A DNA stretch of 42,396 bases from Candidatus Enterococcus wittei (lineage in GTDB: Bacteria; Bacillota; Bacilli; Lactobacillales; Enterococcaceae), in contig NZ_NGMO01000002.1 of assembly GCF_002140175.1 (NCBI RefSeq), positions 772,857-815,252 on the forward strand. Direction: 5' to 3'. The position numbers and the translations under genes are program-made. How positions within the stretch are numbered: position 1 is the stretch's first letter; each line of letters starts with the position of its first letter. The notes beneath the pieces were generated by a model. The model had not been told where the DNA came from. It made no database searches and saw only the letters and a list, made by a program, of their open reading frames with translations. Below are positions 255 through 8,525 of this stretch, piece after piece.

Positions 255-283
255 TTGCAATTTTAATAATTATTCATTAAACT
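255..283 (+). promoter_or_regulatory. oppA promoter (predicted)
   Basis: TTGCAA at 255-260 and TAAACT at 278-283 are separated by 17 bp, about 60 bp upstream of the oppA start. The surrounding 150 bp is almost pure A/T. The spacer contains a TTTAA followed by TAATTAT that matches the start of the putative TldR guide. Confidence 0.5.
262..273 (+). promoter_or_regulatory. Candidate TldR target in the oppA promoter
   Basis: TTTAA (262-266), a known target-adjacent motif of some IS605-type TnpB proteins, is followed by TAATTAT (267-273). These seven bases equal the first seven after the proposed gRNA scaffold (7638-7644); bases 8-12 do not match. The site lies between the -35 and -10, where a bound protein would block RNA polymerase. 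The DNA is very AT-rich, so a chance match is quite possible. Confidence 0.35.
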
Positions 284-342
284 CTTAAACAACTTCAGAA
301 AATATTAATTATTCTGAAAATTGCGAAAAAGGGGTACGGAAG

Positions 343-2007
343 ATGAAAAAGAAATTAACGTTTGGTGTTATAGCCGTATGCGGTCTTGTACTTGCTGGTT
401 GTTATGGTGGCAGTGCAGATACAAAAGATAGTGGCTCAGCAAGTAGTGGCAAAGCTGATGGGGGAGGCGTTTTTAATTTAGTAGTACCTCAAGAAATGCC
501 AACAGCAGATTTATCTGTAGCGACAGACACAATCAGCTTTACTGCTTTGAATAATGTGTATGAAGGGATTTATCGCTTAGATGAAGACAGCAAACCACAA
601 CCGGCAGGCGCTACGGAGCTAGCTGAAGTCAGTGAAGATGGTTTGACCTATAAAATCAAATTGCGTGAGGATGCAAAGTGGTCTAATGGGGATCCTGTAA
701 CTGCTGCTGATTATGTTTATGGTTGGCAACGAACAGTTGATCCGGCAACAGCTTCTGAATATGCTTATCTATTTGCACCAGTAGCAAATGCAGAAGACAT
801 CACTGCTGGCAAGAAAGATAAATCTGAATTAGGAATCAAGGCAGTTGGAGATCATGAGTTGGAGATTACTTTAACAAAACAAACACCTTACTTCCAATAC
901 TTACTTGCCTTTCCATCATTCTTCCCACAAAATCAAGCGGTTGTAGAAAAAAATGGAGATGCTTATGCTTCTAAAAGTGATAAAGCTGTTTACAATGGCC
1001 CATTTACATTAGCAGATTTTGATGGACCAGGAACTGATACAGAATGGACCTATAAGAAAAACGATCAGTATTGGGATAAAGATGCGGTTAAATTATCAGA
1101 AATCAAAGTAAGCGTTGTAAAAGAATCTTCAACTGCTTTAAATCTATTTAAAGATGGCCAAGCAGATGATGTGATTTTATCCGGTGAATTAGCGCAACAA
1201 AATGCCAATGATCCAGCTTATACTTCTGTAAAAGAAGCACGTACAAGCTACATTGAATTTAATCAAAGAGATGATAAATCTCCATTTAAAAATGCTAACT
1301 TGAGAAAAGCTATTTCTTATTCAATCAACCGTGATGCTCTAGTGAAACAAGTCATGGGAGATGGTTCGGTTGCTTCCACTGGATTGATCCCAGCAGATAT
1401 GACGAAAAATCCTGAAACAAATGAAGATTTTGCAGCAGAAGCTGGCGAATTAGTTTCTTACGATAAAGACAAAGCAAAAGAATATTGGGACAAAGCAAAA
1501 AGTGAATTAGGGATTGACTCTCTTGAATTTAGCTTGATGGCCTCTGATGATGATTCAACGAAAAAAGTCATTGAATATATCCAAAACTCAATCCAAGAAA
1601 ATCTTGATGGTGTCAAAGTAAAACCAACACCTGTACCATTTTCTGTTCGTTTAGATCGTTCATCTTCTGGTGATTTTGATACAGTCCTAGGTGGATGGGG
1701 CGCAGATTATGCGGATCCAAGTAGCTTCACTGATCTATTTGTCACAGGTAATTCTTATAACCGTGGACAATGGAGCAATGCTGACTATGACAAAGTAGTT
1801 GAAGCCTCTGCTTCAAAAGATGCTGGTGATGAAAATGCACGTTGGAAAGACTTGCAAGAAGCGAATAAAATCATCGCAGATGACATGGGTGTCGTACCCG
1901 TTTATCAAAAAGCTGAAGGTCACTTAGTAAATGAAAAAGTAAAAGGAATCGTTCACCATGCTGCAGGTGCGTCATGGGATTATAAATGGACTTATATTGA
2001 AGAATAA
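343..2007 (+). CDS. oppA: Oligopeptide ABC transporter, substrate-binding lipoprotein
   Basis: A 554-residue extracellular peptide-binding protein of the SBP_bac_5 (OppA/DppA) family that delivers oligopeptides to the OppBCDF permease. The N-terminus is a lipoprotein signal with lipobox LAGC, so Cys20 is the predicted lipidated residue. The body has typical OppA features: an early YEGIYR segment, KWSNGDPVTAADYVYGWQR, and a late GGWGADYADP. The start has the upstream GGGGTACGGAAG as ribosome site. The gene has its own promoter and terminator and is separated from oppBCDF by a gene on the other strand, so oppA can be made and repressed independently of the permease. In enterococci, relatives bind nutritional peptides or pheromones; which applies here cannot be read from sequence. 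Confidence 0.93.
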   Translation: MKKKLTFGVIAVCGLVLAGCYGGSADTKDSGSASSGKADGGGVFNLVVPQEMPTADLSVATDTISFTALNNVYEGIYRLDEDSKPQPAGATELAEVSEDGLTYKIKLREDAKWSNGDPVTAADYVYGWQRTVDPATASEYAYLFAPVANAEDITAGKKDKSELGIKAVGDHELEITLTKQTPYFQYLLAFPSFFPQNQAVVEKNGDAYASKSDKAVYNGPFTLADFDGPGTDTEWTYKKNDQYWDKDAVKLSEIKVSVVKESSTALNLFKDGQADDVILSGELAQQNANDPAYTSVKEARTSYIEFNQRDDKSPFKNANLRKAISYSINRDALVKQVMGDGSVASTGLIPADMTKNPETNEDFAAEAGELVSYDKDKAKEYWDKAKSELGIDSLEFSLMASDDDSTKKVIEYIQNSIQENLDGVKVKPTPVPFSVRLDRSSSGDFDTVLGGWGADYADPSSFTDLFVTGNSYNRGQWSNADYDKVVEASASKDAGDENARWKDLQEANKIIADDMGVVPVYQKAEGHLVNEKVKGIVHHAAGASWDYKWTYIEE

Positions 2008-2098: not shown

Positions 2099-2443
2099 TT
2101 ATAACAATGATAAAAGCGTAAATATAAGTGAAACAATAAGTAAAATTCCAGCGATGATCAGCCAAAAGCTATACATACCGTAGCTGGCAGACGATAGTGA
2201 AGTAAATTCTAGTTTTTTCTTGCGGTTTCTTGTTCGAGCCAGATGGACCGATCGATGAAAGTGATCAAAGAAACCTGAGGAAAAAACCCATAAAAAACCG
2301 CCGATAATCAAAAACGGCAACGCACATAAAAATAAATCATTGGATAACTGGACGGTTGTTAGCTGATTGGTCACTGCATTTTTAAGAAAAACAAATAAGA
2401 TCAACGCACCAGCAAACAAATAAGGACGATATTTTTTTTTCAT
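2099..2443 (-). CDS. DUF3899-like small membrane protein
   Basis: About 114 residues with three hydrophobic segments: residues ~8-24, ~36-58 and a C-terminal one at ~92-114. The motif IGGFLWVFSSGFFDHFHRS resembles the DUF3899 family of Firmicute membrane proteins, whose function is unknown. Two adjacent ATGs exist; the inner one is preferred because AAAGGAG then sits about 8 bp upstream. The gene lies on the minus strand between oppA and oppB, splitting the transporter locus. Its promoter region (2447-2523) is shared back to back with the start of oppBCDF. Confidence 0.6.
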   Translation of the reverse strand: MKKKYRPYLFAGALILFVFLKNAVTNQLTTVQLSNDLFLCALPFLIIGGFLWVFSSGFFDHFHRSVHLARTRNRKKKLEFTSLSSASYGMYSFWLIIAGILLIVSLIFTLLSLL

Positions 2444-2523
2444 CATTAAACTCCTTTATCTATGGTTCATTAAATAATGTAGCGAAACATTGACCAGAAG
2501 TCAAAAGCTAGGGGGAAACATTA

Positions 2524-3465
2524 GTGAATAGTTATATAAAATATGTATTACAACGTGTCTTTTTTATGATCATCACGCTGTGGTTGATTGCAACGATTAC
2601 CTTCTTTTTAATGCAATTATTACCAGGAACACCTTATACAAATCAGGAAAGATTAAGTCCAGAAACAATTGAAATGTTGAATAAACAAGTAGGTCTAGAC
2701 AAGCCAGTAATCGTACAATACGGTATTTACCTTTCTAATTTGGTCCAAGGCGATTTTGGGATCTCATTCCAATTTAAAAATCAGCCTGTAGCGAATTTAT
2801 TAGCTGGAAGGATTGGGCCTTCATTACAACTCGGAATACAAGCGATTCTCTTTGGTACCATTTTCGGTACGATTTTAGGGACAATTTCTGCGATGAAGCA
2901 AAATACATGGGTCGATACTTCATCTACTCTTGTCGCTATCTTAGGACGCTCCATTCCTAACTTCGTTTTTGCCGTGTTATTGCAATACATTTTTGCAATG
3001 AAATTGCATCTTTTGCCAATTGCAAAGTGGGATGGATTTGTGTATACGATCTTACCGACGATTGCATTAGCCATGTCACCATTGGCAGATTCCGCTCGTT
3101 TTATTCGGACAGAAATGGTAGAAGTATTGCATAGTGACTATGTTGAATTAGCCAGAGCGAAAGGGTTAAGTCGTTGGGAGATTGCCTTTAAACATGGTCT
3201 TCGTAATAGTTTGATCCCGTTGCTGACATTATTGGGACCTTTAGCCGTTGCTTTGATGACCGGATCGTTAGTTGTTGAGAACATCTTTGCTATTCCAGGA
3301 ATCGGGGAACAATTCGTTAAATCGATCACGACAAATGATTACCCGACGATCATGGCAGTCACGATCTTGTATTCATTTATGTTGATTTTTGTGATTCTGA
3401 TTGTTGACTTATTATATGGATTAGTTGACCCAAGAATCCGAGTTTCTGAAGGGAGTCGAAGCTAG
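2524..3465 (+). CDS. oppB: Oligopeptide ABC transporter permease OppB
   Basis: A 313-residue inner-membrane permease (BPD_transp_1) that pairs with OppC to form the peptide channel. It has an N-terminal membrane helix (FFMIITLWLIATITFF), five further helices, and the cytoplasmic EAA loop around ELARAKGLSRWEIAFKHGLR, which docks on the ATPases. It starts with GTG, preceded by TAGGGGG. It is the first gene of oppBCDF-tldR and ends exactly one base before oppC begins, so translation is probably coupled. No terminator lies between it and oppF. Confidence 0.93.
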   Translation: MNSYIKYVLQRVFFMIITLWLIATITFFLMQLLPGTPYTNQERLSPETIEMLNKQVGLDKPVIVQYGIYLSNLVQGDFGISFQFKNQPVANLLAGRIGPSLQLGIQAILFGTIFGTILGTISAMKQNTWVDTSSTLVAILGRSIPNFVFAVLLQYIFAMKLHLLPIAKWDGFVYTILPTIALAMSPLADSARFIRTEMVEVLHSDYVELARAKGLSRWEIAFKHGLRNSLIPLLTLLGPLAVALMTGSLVVENIFAIPGIGEQFVKSITTNDYPTIMAVTILYSFMLIFVILIVDLLYGLVDPRIRVSEGSRS

Positions 3466-4509
3466 ATGGAATGGATACCAAAACGTTATGAAACAATTGC
3501 AGAGATACCTGCAGATGAGTTCTTACCATTACAGAAAAATACTGAAGCAGAACGTGAGAAAATTGAAGCTCCTTCATTGAATTTTATCCAAGATTCTTGG
3601 CGCCGATTGAAGAAAAACAAAGCGGCAGTTATTTCAATGATCTTGTTATCAATGATTATCTTGATCTCAATTGTGACGATCTTTGTTTCACCACATAACC
3701 CTACTGCACAAAATATTGATTATATCAATTTACCGCCACGTATCCCAGGAATCAATATCGATGGATTGAATGGAAAAGCCATGGTCGGTGGAGAATTAGT
3801 TGATAAATATGCACAAGCCAATGTTCCAGCCAATGTCAACTTCTTTTTAGGAACAGATGGATTAGGAAGAGATGTCTTGAGTCGTCTATTCATGGGAACG
3901 CGTATCTCTTTATTGATTGCGTTCATCGCTGCATTGCTTGATGTGACCATCGGGGTAGCTTATGGGCTGATCTCTGGCTTACTAGGTGGACGTGTGGATA
4001 ATGTGATGCAACGTTTCTTAGAAATTTTATCAGGGATTCCCAATTTAGTAGTAATGATCTTGATGTTAGTTGTATTTGAACCAGGGATCTTCTCGATTGT
4101 GGCAGCTATGGCAATCACGAACTGGATTCCGATGGCGCGGATCGTTCGAGCACAGACATTGAAATTGAAAGATCAAGAATATGTACTAGCGGGAATGACG
4201 CTAGGTGAATCAAAATTAAAAATCGCCTTTAAACATATCTTACCAAATATTTCGAGTGTGATCATCATACAAATGATGTTCAGTATTCCTACGGCTATTT
4301 TCTTTGAAGCATTCTTAAGCTTTATCGGACTTGGTTTGACACCGCCTTCTGCTTCATTAGGAACGATGCTAAGTGACGGATACAAAACATTCTTATACTT
4401 GCCGTATCTACTATGGATACCGGCAGCAACATTATCGGTTATCATGATCGGCTTCAACTTATTAGCAGATGGTTTACGTGATGCCTTTGACCCTAAAATG
4501 AAAGAGTGA
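3466..4509 (+). CDS. oppC: Oligopeptide ABC transporter permease OppC
   Basis: A 347-residue second permease. A cytoplasmic N-terminus of ~60 residues precedes the first helix (AAVISMILLSMIILISIVTI). An extracellular stretch contains the typical FFLGTDGLGRDVLSRL motif, then come five helices with an EAA loop near YVLAGMTLGESKLKIAFKH. The start abuts the oppB stop. Its stop codon region runs into oppD. Family and operon context make the assignment secure. Confidence 0.93.
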   Translation: MEWIPKRYETIAEIPADEFLPLQKNTEAEREKIEAPSLNFIQDSWRRLKKNKAAVISMILLSMIILISIVTIFVSPHNPTAQNIDYINLPPRIPGINIDGLNGKAMVGGELVDKYAQANVPANVNFFLGTDGLGRDVLSRLFMGTRISLLIAFIAALLDVTIGVAYGLISGLLGGRVDNVMQRFLEILSGIPNLVVMILMLVVFEPGIFSIVAAMAITNWIPMARIVRAQTLKLKDQEYVLAGMTLGESKLKIAFKHILPNISSVIIIQMMFSIPTAIFFEAFLSFIGLGLTPPSASLGTMLSDGYKTFLYLPYLLWIPAATLSVIMIGFNLLADGLRDAFDPKMKE

Positions 4510-4514
4510 GTAAG

Positions 4515-5597
4515 ATGACGAAAATTCTTGAAGTAAAGAACTTAGAAATCTCCTTTGATACGTATGCTGGCAAAGTACAGGCGATTCGAGGCGTTGATTT
4601 TCATTTGAACAAAGGTGAGACATTAGCGATCGTTGGCGAATCCGGTAGTGGGAAATCAGTTACTACTAGAAGTATCATGCGGTTATTGTCAAGCAATGCT
4701 TCAATCGATTCAGGAGAAATTTTATTTAATGGTGAAAACATCGTAGGAAAATCAGAAAAGGAAATGCAAAAGATCCGTGGAAAAGAGATTGCAATGATTT
4801 TTCAAGATCCGATGACTTCTTTAGATCCGACGATGCCAATTGGAAAGCAAGTAGCAGAATCACTGCGTAAGCACAATAAAGTGACGAAAAAAGAGGGAGA
4901 AAAAGCAGCATTAGAACTGTTGAAGCTTGTAGGAATCCCAGAAGCTGAAAAGCGGATCAAAAGCTATCCCCATCAATTTTCAGGTGGACAAAGACAGCGG
5001 ATCGTGATTGCGATTGCTTTGATTTGTTATCCAAAGATCCTGATTGCTGATGAACCTACAACTGCTTTAGATGTAACGATCCAAGCACAGATTTTAGAAT
5101 TATTAAAAGAGATCCAAACGAAAATCGACACATCGATTATCTTTATCACGCATGACCTTGGCGTAGTAGCAAATGTGGCGGATCGAGTAGCAGTAATGTA
5201 CGGTGGCAAAATCATTGAAGTAGGGACAGCAGAAGAAATCTTTTACAACCCACAGCATCCATATACTTGGGGCTTGCTTGGTTCAATGCCTACATTGGAC
5301 AGTGGTAATGAACGCCTTTATGCCATTCCTGGGTCACCACCAGATTTATTGAATCCACCTAAGGGAGATGCTTTTTATCCGAGAAATGAGTTTGCTTTAA
5401 AAATCGATGCGGAACAAACGCCACCGTTTTTTGAGCTTTCGAAAACACATCAAGCAGCCACTTGGCTTTTAGCCCCTCAAGCACCAAAAGTAACACCACC
5501 AGAAGAGATCCAACGTCGTTGGGCTATTTTTAAAGAAAAACAACAAGCACGCGGCCAAGGGGGAATAACAGATGAAAAAAAAGTTGCTCGAAGTTAA
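4515..5597 (+). CDS. oppD: Oligopeptide ABC transporter ATPase OppD
   Basis: A ~360-residue ATPase powering peptide uptake as a heterodimer with OppF. Counting from the ATG at 4515, Walker A is GESGSGKS (41-48), the Q-loop is in IFQDPMTSLDP, the signature is FSGGQRQR, Walker B is ILIADEPT, and the H-loop is in FITHDLG. The C-terminal oligopeptide/dipeptide domain is present (HPYTWGLLGSMP, IPGSPPDL). A GTG at 4506, overlapping the oppC stop, is an alternative start three codons upstream; ATG is preferred because AAAGAG lies 8 bp before it. The 3' end overlaps oppF by 26 bp. Confidence 0.92.
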   Translation: MTKILEVKNLEISFDTYAGKVQAIRGVDFHLNKGETLAIVGESGSGKSVTTRSIMRLLSSNASIDSGEILFNGENIVGKSEKEMQKIRGKEIAMIFQDPMTSLDPTMPIGKQVAESLRKHNKVTKKEGEKAALELLKLVGIPEAEKRIKSYPHQFSGGQRQRIVIAIALICYPKILIADEPTTALDVTIQAQILELLKEIQTKIDTSIIFITHDLGVVANVADRVAVMYGGKIIEVGTAEEIFYNPQHPYTWGLLGSMPTLDSGNERLYAIPGSPPDLLNPPKGDAFYPRNEFALKIDAEQTPPFFELSKTHQAATWLLAPQAPKVTPPEEIQRRWAIFKEKQQARGQGGITDEKKVARS

Positions 5598-6525
5598 AGG
5601 ACTAAAACAGTACTTCAATATCGGTAAGAAAAATGAAGTGCATGCAGTCAATGATATTAGTTTCCATATTTATGAAGGAGAGACTTTTGGTTTAGTTGGT
5701 GAATCAGGTAGTGGGAAATCCACTACTGGACGTACGATCATTCGTTTGAATGAACCGACAGGCGGGGAGATCTTGTTTGATGGAAAAGACGTGACGAAAG
5801 TTAAAGGAAAAGAAGCAATGACCAAGTTTCGTCGGGAAGTCCAAATGATCTTTCAAGATCCCTATGCCTCTTTGAACCCACGGATGAAAGTACGAGATAT
5901 CATCGCAGAAGGAATCGATGTGAATGGATTAGCAAAAACGCCAGAAGAACGTACGGAAAAAGTCAATGAGCTGCTAAAAACAGTAGGATTGAATCCTAGT
6001 CATGGGACACGTTATCCTCATGAATTCTCAGGTGGGCAACGTCAGAGGATCGGGATTGCCCGAGCTTTGGCGGTCAAGCCAAAATTCATCATTTGCGACG
6101 AACCGATTTCTGCCTTAGATGTCTCGATCCAAGCACAAGTAGTCAATCTTTTACAAGATCTCCAAAAAGAACAAGGATTGACGTATTTGTTTATCGCACA
6201 TGATTTATCCATGGTCAAACATATCAGTGACCGGATTGGAGTAATGCATAACGGTTTATTGCTTGAGATGGGAACTAGTGACGAAATTTACAATCATGGT
6301 GTCCATCCATATACAGAAAGTCTACTTTCCGCTATTCCGTTACCTGACCCCGATCATGAACGCCAACGTCGTCGTATCAAGTATCAACCAGAACCTGCAG
6401 ATGGACAGGAGCGGACTTTGAGAGAAATTGCTCCTGAACATTTTATCTATGCTACTGAGCAAGAAGTACCTTACTATGCAGCAAAATTAAAACGACAAAA
6501 AGAAGCGATGCTTGTAGCTAATTAG
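5572..6525 (+). CDS. oppF: Oligopeptide ABC transporter ATPase OppF
   Basis: A 317-residue second ATPase of the Opp system. Walker A is GESGSGKST, the Q-loop is in [13 protein letters not shown], the signature is FSGGQRQR, Walker B is [12 protein letters not shown], and the H-loop is in [11 protein letters not shown]-terminal peptide-transporter domain follows ([16 protein letters not shown]). It starts inside the oppD 3' end with GGGGG upstream. Only 12 bp containing TTAGGAGGAGAGG separate it from the next gene, so the TnpB-like gene shares its transcript. Confidence 0.93.
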
Positions 6526-6537
6526 GAGGAGAGGCGG

Positions 6538-7545
6538 ATGTTGAAAGCCTTCAAATTCCGAATTTATCCGACTCCTGCTCAGAAGCAGTGGTTGATTCAA
6601 ACATTTGGCTGTGTTCGTTTCACCTATAATCATCTTTTAAAAGCAAGACAAGCACATTATGCCGAAACGAAGGAAATCGATTATACGTTGACACCCGCCG
6701 TTTTAAAGAAGCAGTTTCCATTTTTAAAAGAAACTGATAGTTTGGCTTTAGCAAATGCACAATTAAACTTAGATCGTGCATTTCGTAATTATTTTAAAGG
6801 ACGTACTAGCTTACCTAAGCTTAAAAACAAAAAGAGTATTTGGCAGTCTTATACAACAAATAATCAAAAAGGAACCATCTATTTGGAAGATAAGTACTTG
6901 AAACTGCCCAAATTAAAAGAAAAAATCCGGATCCATGTTCACCGACCTTTAGAAGGAACGATTCGTTCGGCCACGATTTCTTCTCGCTATAATGAAGTAT
7001 TTTACGTGTCTTTGCTTTGTGACGTTTCTCCAAAACCACTAGTTGCTTCGAATAGATGGATTGGCGTGGCCTATGACCCGCACGCTTTGATTGAGACATC
7101 CACACCAATCGACCTTGTTGTACCAAAATTTAATCGGATCAACCAAAAAATTTTCCAGGCTAAAAGGAAGTTAGCTGTGAAAGGGAAAGCTGCTCAGAAA
7201 AGAAAGATCCATGTTGAAAAAGCTAAGAATTATCAAAAACAAAAAAGAAAAATCAAAGATCTCTATTTGAAACAAAAATATCAAAGAGAAGATTATTTAG
7301 AACAAATCTCTGGTGCTTTGGTACGTAATTTCGATTATCTATTTATTGAATCAAGACCAAAAAGTTGTGAGGAGTCTGATTTTTCCACGCAGTTATGGGA
7401 TAAATTAATTACAAAAATACGATACAAAGCGCAATGGTATAATAAAAACTTGCTTTTGATCGATATGAACGAGCAAAAGCAACAAGTAACAAATAAAAAA
7501 AGTCACCATTTGGAAAAAATTGGTGTGGAAGTGGTTTTTAAGTAA
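6538..7545 (+). CDS. tldR: TldR: nuclease-dead TnpB-like RNA-guided repressor
   Basis: A 335-residue protein of the IS200/IS605 OrfB (TnpB) family. The N-terminus is classic (MLKAFKFRIYPTPAQKQWL, then CVRFTYNHLL), followed by a wedge/REC-like part and a RuvC-like fold. The catalytic pieces are broken. The first RuvC Asp (normally GxDxG) is replaced in GVAYD (176-180), with Ala178 at the Asp position. The second acid survives in LFIES (Glu271). The zinc-finger cysteine pairs and the last RuvC Asp are absent, because the protein ends at VVFK. The gene is intact, has a strong ribosome site, and sits 12 bp after oppF rather than inside an IS: no tnpA and no second IS end was seen. This fits the oppF-linked TldR family described in 2024 (Wiegand and colleagues), RNA-guided repressors domesticated from TnpB. 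An inactive transposon relic is the alternative, but the open frame and operon position argue against it. Confidence 0.88.
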   Translation: MLKAFKFRIYPTPAQKQWLIQTFGCVRFTYNHLLKARQAHYAETKEIDYTLTPAVLKKQFPFLKETDSLALANAQLNLDRAFRNYFKGRTSLPKLKNKKSIWQSYTTNNQKGTIYLEDKYLKLPKLKEKIRIHVHRPLEGTIRSATISSRYNEVFYVSLLCDVSPKPLVASNRWIGVAYDPHALIETSTPIDLVVPKFNRINQKIFQAKRKLAVKGKAAQKRKIHVEKAKNYQKQKRKIKDLYLKQKYQREDYLEQISGALVRNFDYLFIESRPKSCEESDFSTQLWDKLITKIRYKAQWYNKNLLLIDMNEQKQQVTNKKSHHLEKIGVEVVFK

Positions 7546-7653
7546 AAGAACTGGTAGGAGCGCCAGGGTTCGCCTTGTTAATAAAAAACAATTGCTGTTT
7601 TTGTTTCTAGGAATTTTCTTTGCTAAGACAAGCTCACTAATTATGACAAACCA
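7546..7653 (+). ncRNA. Candidate TldR guide RNA (scaffold and guide)
   Basis: TnpB-type guide RNAs start near the 3' end of the protein gene and end in a guide. Here the 3' region can fold: AAAAACA (7584-7590) pairs with TGTTTTT (7596-7602), and CTTGT (7574-7578) pairs with ACAAG (7628-7632). This leaves a single-stranded tail after CTCAC. The 16 bases TAATTATGACAAACCA (7638-7653) lie between that fold and a terminator and are the proposed guide. The 5' end may reach into tldR. The scaffold-guide boundary is inferred. Confidence 0.55.
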
Positions 7654-7696
7654 AAAAGATGAGATGGAGATATTTGCTCCAAGCTCATCTTTTTTT
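7654..7696 (+). terminator. Terminator of opp-tldR-gRNA transcript
   Basis: Arms GATGAG-at-GGAG and CTCC-aag-CTCATC enclose a short loop and are followed by TTTTTTTG; A-rich on the other side, so it may also serve nrtR, which converges on it. It would define the 3' end of a guide RNA precursor. Confidence 0.8.
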
Positions 7697-7703
7697 GTTC
7701 TCT

Positions 7704-8525
7704 TTATTCAGAATGGACCGATTTTAAACGATAGATCTTTGAGGGACGACCGATACCAACTGGACGTTCACCGACTTCCTCAAAATATTGTAACATTGCT
7801 TTTTTAAAATTAGAATGATCGATCATCTTGAAGTCGATTCCTAAAAATTTTGCAAATACTTTCCTTGCTTCCGTGATCGTAAAATCTTTCCCTAATACTT
7901 GTAAGACTTGTGGTTCATGTTCCATCTTATTGACAACCCGATTGAAAGCTTTGACAATGATCTCACTATGGTCAAAAGCCAAGGTGTCTTTCCCAGAAGA
8001 ATGACTCGTATTTAAATCGAGTGAAATAGCTACCTCACCATTTGATAAATGAAGGGTATGCCCACTACGTTCAAGGGAAAACCATTTGACTTCTTTCGCA
8101 TCATCTCCTGCAATCAATGGTTCTTCACCAATAAAAGCTAAGTAACTAACCGTTACGACCCATCCTCGTGGATCTCGATCAGGAGTGCTAAAAGTATGCA
8201 GTTGTTCGATGTTATCTTTGGAAATGACCACACCGGTTTCTTCTTGTGTTTCCCGTAAAACACTTTCCCCAGTAGATTCATTTTTTTGAACGAACCCTCC
8301 TGGTAAAGCCCATGAATTACGATAAGGATGACTCTTACGTTGGATCAGTAAGACTTTTAATTGATCTTCTTCCTTGTTATAACATAATAATACGATATCC
8401 ACAGTCAATGACGGTTTTTCATATTCAGGACGCTCTTGTTTTTGGTACCAATCAAGAAAATCTGTTTCATTTGCTTCTTGTTCATAATACGTTTTTTCTT
8501 CTTTTTTAGAATGAAATCCAGACAC
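7704..8525 (-). CDS. nrtR: NrtR-type Nudix/winged-helix regulator
   Basis: 273 residues. An N-terminal Nudix hydrolase-like domain (residues ~40-170) is followed by a winged-helix domain (FTITEARKVFAKFLGIDF, then GRPSKIYRL). This is the architecture of NrtR, an ADP-ribose-sensing repressor of NAD metabolism genes. The Nudix box is complete (GFVQKNE, then RETQEETGV with the spacing G-x5-E-x7-RE-x2-EE), so residual hydrolase activity is possible. The start is GTG at 8525 with AGGAGGTGAT 5 bp upstream. No NAD gene adjoins it; its targets may lie elsewhere, although a niacin transporter is encoded 7 kb away. It converges with the opp-tldR operon. Confidence 0.8.
   Translation of the reverse strand: MSGFHSKKEEKTYYEQEANETDFLDWYQKQERPEYEKPSLTVDIVLLCYNKEEDQLKVLLIQRKSHPYRNSWALPGGFVQKNESTGESVLRETQEETGVVISKDNIEQLHTFSTPDRDPRGWVVTVSYLAFIGEEPLIAGDDAKEVKWFSLERSGHTLHLSNGEVAISLDLNTSHSSGKDTLAFDHSEIIVKAFNRVVNKMEHEPQVLQVLGKDFTITEARKVFAKFLGIDFKMIDHSNFKKAMLQYFEEVGERPVGIGRPSKIYRLKSVHSE

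Follow-up and report, generated by a model that had tools for sequence, protein, structure and literature searches.

What would a TnpB homologue without its nuclease residues do at the end of an oligopeptide permease operon? This question is raised by tldR, a gene that follows oppF in a 42,396-nucleotide stretch of Candidatus Enterococcus wittei (hereafter the window; G000:C2:772857-815252 in a source genome of 3.37 Mb). A preliminary description had taken tldR for an intact, domesticated and nuclease-dead TnpB relative linked to oppF, and had proposed a feedback loop in which peptide uptake is tied to an RNA-guided repressor made from the same transcript. Here we examine the protein, its surroundings and the homologous loci of related genomes. 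Based on these sequences, we consider it highly probable that TldR and a guide RNA act together as an RNA-guided repressor of their own opp system, holding back the peptide importer.

The nuclease-dead TnpB homologue and its neighbours

The genes concerned are the following.

343..2007, plus strand: oppA, peptide-binding protein (open reading frame, profile search)
2099..2446, minus strand: small membrane-like open reading frame of 115 aa, antisense, between oppA and oppB (conserved)
2524..6525, plus strand: oppB (2524-3465), oppC (3466-4509), oppD (4506-5597) and oppF (5572-6525) (position, similarity across loci, synteny)
6538..7545, plus strand: tldR, nuclease-dead TnpB homologue (open reading frame, profile searches, alignment, fold match to ISDra2 TnpB)
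7704-8525, minus strand: NrtR-like Nudix regulator with a winged helix, convergent with the guide RNA (profile searches)

The tldR reading frame starts with ATG, encodes 335 aa and begins 12 bp past the oppF stop, where a Shine-Dalgarno-like GGAGGAG is also located. The protein exceeded the cut-offs of the NCBIfam profile guided_TnpB (140 bits, cut-off 100) and of Pfam HTH_OrfB_IS605 (68.5 bits, cut-off 21), and it remained under those of the narrower NCBIfam model IS200_TnpB (213 bits, cut-off 425) and of Pfam OrfB_IS605 (24 bits, cut-off 30.5). According to the profile searches and the fold match, the homology to TnpB spans the WED/REC and RuvC regions. The open reading frame and these searches thus bear out the intact TnpB-family gene that had been described 12 bp after oppF.

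The preliminary description had also reported a change of the first catalytic RuvC Asp (in GVAYD) and the absence of the zinc-finger cysteines and of the last RuvC Asp, and had suggested an alignment as a check. We aligned the window TldR with seven TnpBs of insertion sequences (IS), and the loss was seen at each of these places: the RuvC-I Asp, which is D in all seven, is replaced by Ala178 within 'IGVAYDP', and neither the RuvC-III Asp nor the CxxC zinc-finger cysteines have a counterpart. The RuvC-II Glu, which had gone unmentioned, is retained (E271, in 'FIES'). Intact IS TnpBs possess the RuvC-I D, the RuvC-III D and the zinc finger, whereas the window TldR is without all three; in other words, it lacks the complete RuvC D-E-D and zinc finger of an active IS200/IS605 TnpB. 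The AlphaFold model, built from only 6 sequences, was modest (pLDDT 72, pTM 0.46), and the statements on RuvC residues are therefore based on the sequence alignment. The same catalytic loss was found in 55/55 short-clade and 20/20 E. faecalis-type proteins aligned, where the short-clade count leaves out L085, L115 and L116 (broken or without a guide RNA) and the IS TnpBs L117 and L118.

We also searched for a Y1 transposase (PF01797). None was present in the window, in agreement with the reported lack of a transposase partner, and the three matches in the genome all lie elsewhere. An oppF homologue was found just upstream of tldR in 49 of 58 short-clade loci (canonical opp operon in 45, divergent opp-like operon in 4) and in all 20 E. 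faecalis-type loci fetched. This synteny, together with the Y1 search, constitutes the stable tie to a non-transposon gene without TnpA that characterizes TldRs, so that the alignment and the synteny confirm both the nuclease-dead status and the link to oppF.

Full-length orthologues, 62-100% identical, occur in 13 of 15 genus genomes (own genome included), and relatives are found in Enterococcus mundtii, E. villorum and E. durans (67-75%) and in Tetragenococcus solitarius (48%). Some match to TldR was obtained in 83 of 105 family genomes, full-length TnpBs counted in; the related genomes in all family counts are not independent observations. Order-wide, 34 of 246 genomes matched at E 1e-45 or better, and the six order-level matches outside the family were TnpB-sized, with open frames of 364-386 aa. 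We calculated dN/dS for nine chosen pairs, of which two gave no value and four were near saturation; the three closest pairs showed values of 0.074, 0.107 and 0.029, which indicates purifying selection on a catalytically dead TldR. We also built a tree from 49 chosen proteins, in which both TldR clades were separated from the TnpBs with support 98/93; with the root placed among the TnpBs, a single domestication would be possible.

In some relatives, tldR copies are found in other surroundings. The copies of L093, L096, L098-L100 and L103 lie near Nudix and metG genes with no opp nearby, and their guides start with TAATTAT. Among the genomes with such a Nudix/metG-side TldR, G039, G042 and G043 carry a second TldR at opp elsewhere.

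The predicted guide RNA

Directly past the tldR stop codon we found a predicted guide RNA, which was absent from the preliminary description. It consists of the following parts.

7549..7637, plus strand: guide-RNA scaffold, from AACTGG to CTCAC (homology to the right end, ..AGTTCAC, of intact TnpB elements)
7638..7653, plus strand: guide UAAUUAUGACAAACCA (= TAATTATGACAAACCA), of which nt 1-7 match the oppA site (sequence conservation)
7655..7697, plus strand: intrinsic-terminator-like hairpin closing the guide RNA (sequence, RNA fold)

The scaffold thus reads AACTGG...GTTTCTAGGAA...CTCAC and is followed by the guide and then by the hairpin, which might serve as a terminator for both the guide RNA and the Nudix gene. 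The counterpart of the scaffold end in the nearest intact TnpB insertion sequences is their right end, AGTTCAC, and a 3' guide RNA with a scaffold homologous to the omega-RNA region of TnpB is a further characteristic of TldRs. The bases past the IS right end are host flank, and 20 different flanks were observed in 20/20 IS copies. Given that the right end is followed by a variable host flank, the boundary between scaffold and guide is fixed independently. The TAM, TTTAA, was read from the IS left-end flanks (14 of the 15 copies listed, out of 20 IS loci).

The scaffold anchor was present in 55 of 58 short-clade loci, and TAATTAT stands right past the scaffold end in all 55. The pattern used for guide extraction itself contained TAATTAT, and the test was the occurrence of TAATTAT within 70 bases past the scaffold anchor (55/55). 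Therefore, the guide does not vary with the insertion site as that of an active TnpB does: its start is fixed in 55 loci, in contrast to the 20 different IS flanks. Covariation in the scaffold is weak, with two-sided changes in 2 of 12 pairs, and the case for a guide RNA consequently rests on sequence conservation. With the scaffold model R2, every one of the 13 genus genomes with tldR gave one match of more than 70 bits, and the two genus genomes without tldR gave none above 70 bits. In the own genome, R2 showed a single strong match (82.1 bits; the next had 19.2 bits), which speaks against extra guide RNAs acting in trans there. In L072, L076 and L077, the tldR C-termini read RQGSPRG or RQGSPRE and the frame extends into the scaffold, so that gene and RNA overlap.

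Conservation of the guide goes beyond its pairing with oppA: positions 8-15 (7645-7652), about RANAAACC, are conserved in 55 related guide RNAs, and position 8 is always a purine in the short-TldR clade. A target for the full-length guide was considered and rejected, since TAATTATGACAAACC with up to 2 mismatches had 7 matches in the own genome (guide RNA included) versus 14 for the reversed-pattern control. The pattern TAATTATRANWAACC had a single occurrence per genome in the 13 genus genomes that carry tldR and none in the 2 that lack it; for 12 of the 13, this occurrence is the guide RNA. The remaining genome, G002, has a guide ending in AAATCA, outside the TAATTATRANWAACC pattern; its one match is at another place and is not identical to its guide. 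No further site for the entire guide was found in the genus genomes.

The predicted target site at the putative oppA promoter

The first seven nucleotides of the guide recur upstream of oppA, where we recognized the following features.

255..283, plus strand: putative oppA promoter, TTGCAA (255-260), 17-bp spacer and TAAACT (278-283) (reading and conservation)
262..266, plus strand: TAM TTTAA (IS left-end flanks)
267..273, plus strand: target seed TAATTAT = guide nt 1-7 (sequence match, conservation)
294..322, plus strand: CodY-box-like repeat TTCAGAAAA...TTCTGAAAATT (sequence)

TTTAA and TAATTAT together (262-273) fall inside the 17-bp spacer between the -35-like and -10-like boxes, in a putative promoter that a generic promoter scan did not list. 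The combination of TTTAA and TAATTA, TTTAATAATTA, was found upstream of oppA and between the boxes in 45/45 canonical short-clade loci, including L073, whose contig ends before the -35. Counted per oppA copy, it was found in 46 of 49, and the three copies without it are second copies located downstream; in L113 and L114, one upstream copy lay at the border of the fetched sequence and does not enter this count. The guide pairs with the target over 7 nt in 32 of the 45 loci and over 6 nt in 13, and position 8 matches in none (0/45). In the divergent opp operons, TAM and seed occupy the opposite strand immediately upstream of the -35, with 6-7 nt matched, in the three of four loci whose oppA had been fetched; in the fourth, the variant operon L108, oppA lay beyond the fetched stretch.

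In the 20 fetched loci that we call E. faecalis-type (19 from genus g13, one from g2), opp is followed by a TldR of greater length, 354-373 aa. Its RuvC-I D position holds T in 16, S in 3 and C in 1, its RuvC-III D position is E in 20/20, and the RuvC-II E is kept in 20/20. The guide is TAATTATTAGTT-like. In 20/20 loci its target, TTTAA-TAATTATT, is located downstream of the -10-like box and on the opposite strand, with a match of 8 nt in 18 loci, 9 in one and 7 in one. A TAM-and-seed target in a conserved, inferred promoter is thus shared with known TldRs, and given that the same TAM and seed occur in three places and orientations, an ordinary promoter element would not explain the site.

These loci also bear on an Rfam family. 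Ref70 (RF02841, 'Enterococcus sRNA 70') aligned with the window guide RNA from end to end, CACUAAUUA included, with 31.8 bits against a gathering threshold of 115 bits and E 0.0005 on 281 bases. The gathering score was passed in 17 of 103 family genomes (115.6-140.5 bits; 16 of g13, one of g2), and the full-score match in G073 lies just 3' of its TldR; at E 1e-4, 47 of the 103 matched, the own genome not among them. As judged from these alignments, Ref70 corresponds to the guide RNA that accompanies TldR in the E. faecalis-type loci (L199-L218). Going by the name of Ref70 alone, g13 and g2 would be the E. faecalis group. A literature search on Ref70 yielded nothing relevant, including in the available portions of PMC3166299, PMC7724050 and PMC10117718.

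We next turn to loci without tldR. No TTTAATAATTA was found on either strand in 17/17 regions upstream of oppA homologues from 9 genomes, where two rows of G095 are included and G015 and G070 are left out because of their E. faecalis-type TldR; OppA is 76-85% identical only in G003, G018, G022, G025 and G031, the others being more distant homologues. In G003, a member of the same genus without tldR (OppA 85%), the boxes TTGCTT and TAAACT are kept and the seed is missing from the spacer. Within the own genome, TTTAATAATTAT occurs twice, at the oppA site and inside tuf, compared with 3 for the reversed-pattern control, so that it is the place of the oppA site, not the number of occurrences, that speaks. 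Sites with a 6-nt seed numbered 6 versus 9 for the reversed control.

Four further TTTAATAATTA sites of the own genome lie outside long open reading frames (G000:C1:25385, C1:26742, C1:884012 and C3:436187) and are possibly weak extra targets or chance occurrences. L104, L105, L107, L109 and L110 have a second site, TTTAATAATTATTAATT, on the minus strand in the gap between oppA and oppB.

Two features of the locus concern its expression. The repeat at 294-322 resembles a CodY box and, with a loosely defined pattern, a similar one was recovered from 60 of the 65 related leaders; as it lies just downstream of the oppA promoter, nutrient control may be layered on top. A homologue of the antisense open reading frame was present between oppA and oppB in 65/65 canonical loci examined, and opp therefore looks like an interrupted (noncontiguous) operon. 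Co-transcription of oppF and tldR, 12 bp apart, is likely, whereas that of oppA with oppB-tldR is uncertain because of this conserved antisense frame.

Interpretation and relation to known systems

We propose that the domesticated, nuclease-dead TnpB and its 3'-encoded guide RNA would form a ribonucleoprotein that recognizes TTTAA and the 6-7 nt seed inside the oppA promoter. By binding this DNA, the complex would open a short R-loop and keep RNA polymerase off, and the importer would be restrained by a product of its own locus. Such negative autoregulation would probably operate on top of nutrient control of the CodY type. The feedback loop of the preliminary description thereby gains direct sequence support, since a guide RNA lies 3' of tldR, the TAM derives from IS flanks and the oppA site accompanies the gene (45/45 and 20/20) and is absent without it (0/17). 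The part that placed repressor and permease on the same transcript stands as plausible for oppF-tldR and is uncertain for oppA.

How else could these data be read? The site is AT-rich and nearly palindromic (TTTAATAATTATTnATTAAA), so that another regulator could use it; it might serve an ordinary dimeric regulator as operator or be a feature of the promoter, and resemble the guide only by coincidence. This would suit the fact that TTTAATAATTATTAAA is its own reverse complement and that the window version keeps the TTTAAT..ATTAAA ends. However, the sequence shared with the guide starts precisely where the scaffold gives way to the guide, and at the oppA site it has the TAM of the nearest TnpBs in front of it; moreover, the site changes position and orientation with the clade and is missing without the gene (0/17). 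Such an operator therefore seems improbable to us. We give still less credence to the idea that TldR and its RNA act mainly against active TnpB elements, as a decoy or antagonist, with the link to opp a genomic accident. Intact IS elements with the same scaffold end and TAM do occur in some of the same genomes (for example, G007 and G054), yet the TldR guide does not vary and corresponds to a single promoter, unlike the IS guides, which all differ, and in five genus genomes (G001, G005, G010, G011 and G013) TldR is the sole match among the matches listed. As for a decaying, functionless transposon remnant, broken tldR copies do exist in L085 and L116, but an intact frame in 13/15 genus genomes, the low dN/dS and the conservation of guide and target make this reading scarcely credible.

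Besides the AT-rich, nearly palindromic site, the antisense frame, the weak covariation and the promoter missed by the generic scan, a further observation counts against the repressor proposed here: the complementarity between guide and oppA ends at nt 6-7. If the guide has been selected to stop pairing at this point, the locus might be a tuned natural CRISPRi with a 6-7 bp R-loop and partial, reversible repression, in which the 3' half of the guide has a second job. We regard this extension as rather unlikely. If the repressor reading itself holds, the locus would represent an RNA-guided transcription factor that is chromosomal and long kept, with a guide, TAM and target open to family-wide comparison, also with genomes that lack both gene and site. 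It would also offer a candidate function for Ref70, here known by name alone, and open cheap, concrete tests of how few base pairs natural RNA-guided repression needs.

The kind of system is already known, and its guide and target are here readable directly from the sequence. The oppF-associated TldRs of enterococci that Wiegand et al. described in 2024 (Nature 631:439) reportedly have a dead RuvC, a guide RNA 3' of the gene, a short guide and a promoter target. Compared with these, nothing in the window locus is known to be qualitatively different, and it represents another species' copy. Our literature search listed no further paper on an oppF-linked TldR; in the available portion of PMC12844089, TnpB and oppF are both present and are treated apart. 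The identity of Ref70, the family-wide target table with its relocations, the absence of the site without the gene and the mismatch at position 8 come from the present analysis. The full-score members of Ref70 are the E. faecalis-type guide RNAs, whereas the window guide RNA aligns with the family but scores below gathering. ISDra2 TnpB (PDB 8h1j, 8ex9, 8exa and 8bf8) matches the window TldR in fold. In the flagellin-linked (fliC) TldR of Enterobacter prophages, a 6-nt seed by the TAM suffices for RNA-guided promoter repression, according to the available portion of PMC13418256. As presented there, that TldR is phage-borne and aimed at flagellin, whereas the window TldR resides at the opp locus and appears to be aimed at its own operon; at the oppA promoter, the complex of TldR and its RNA would follow the same logic.
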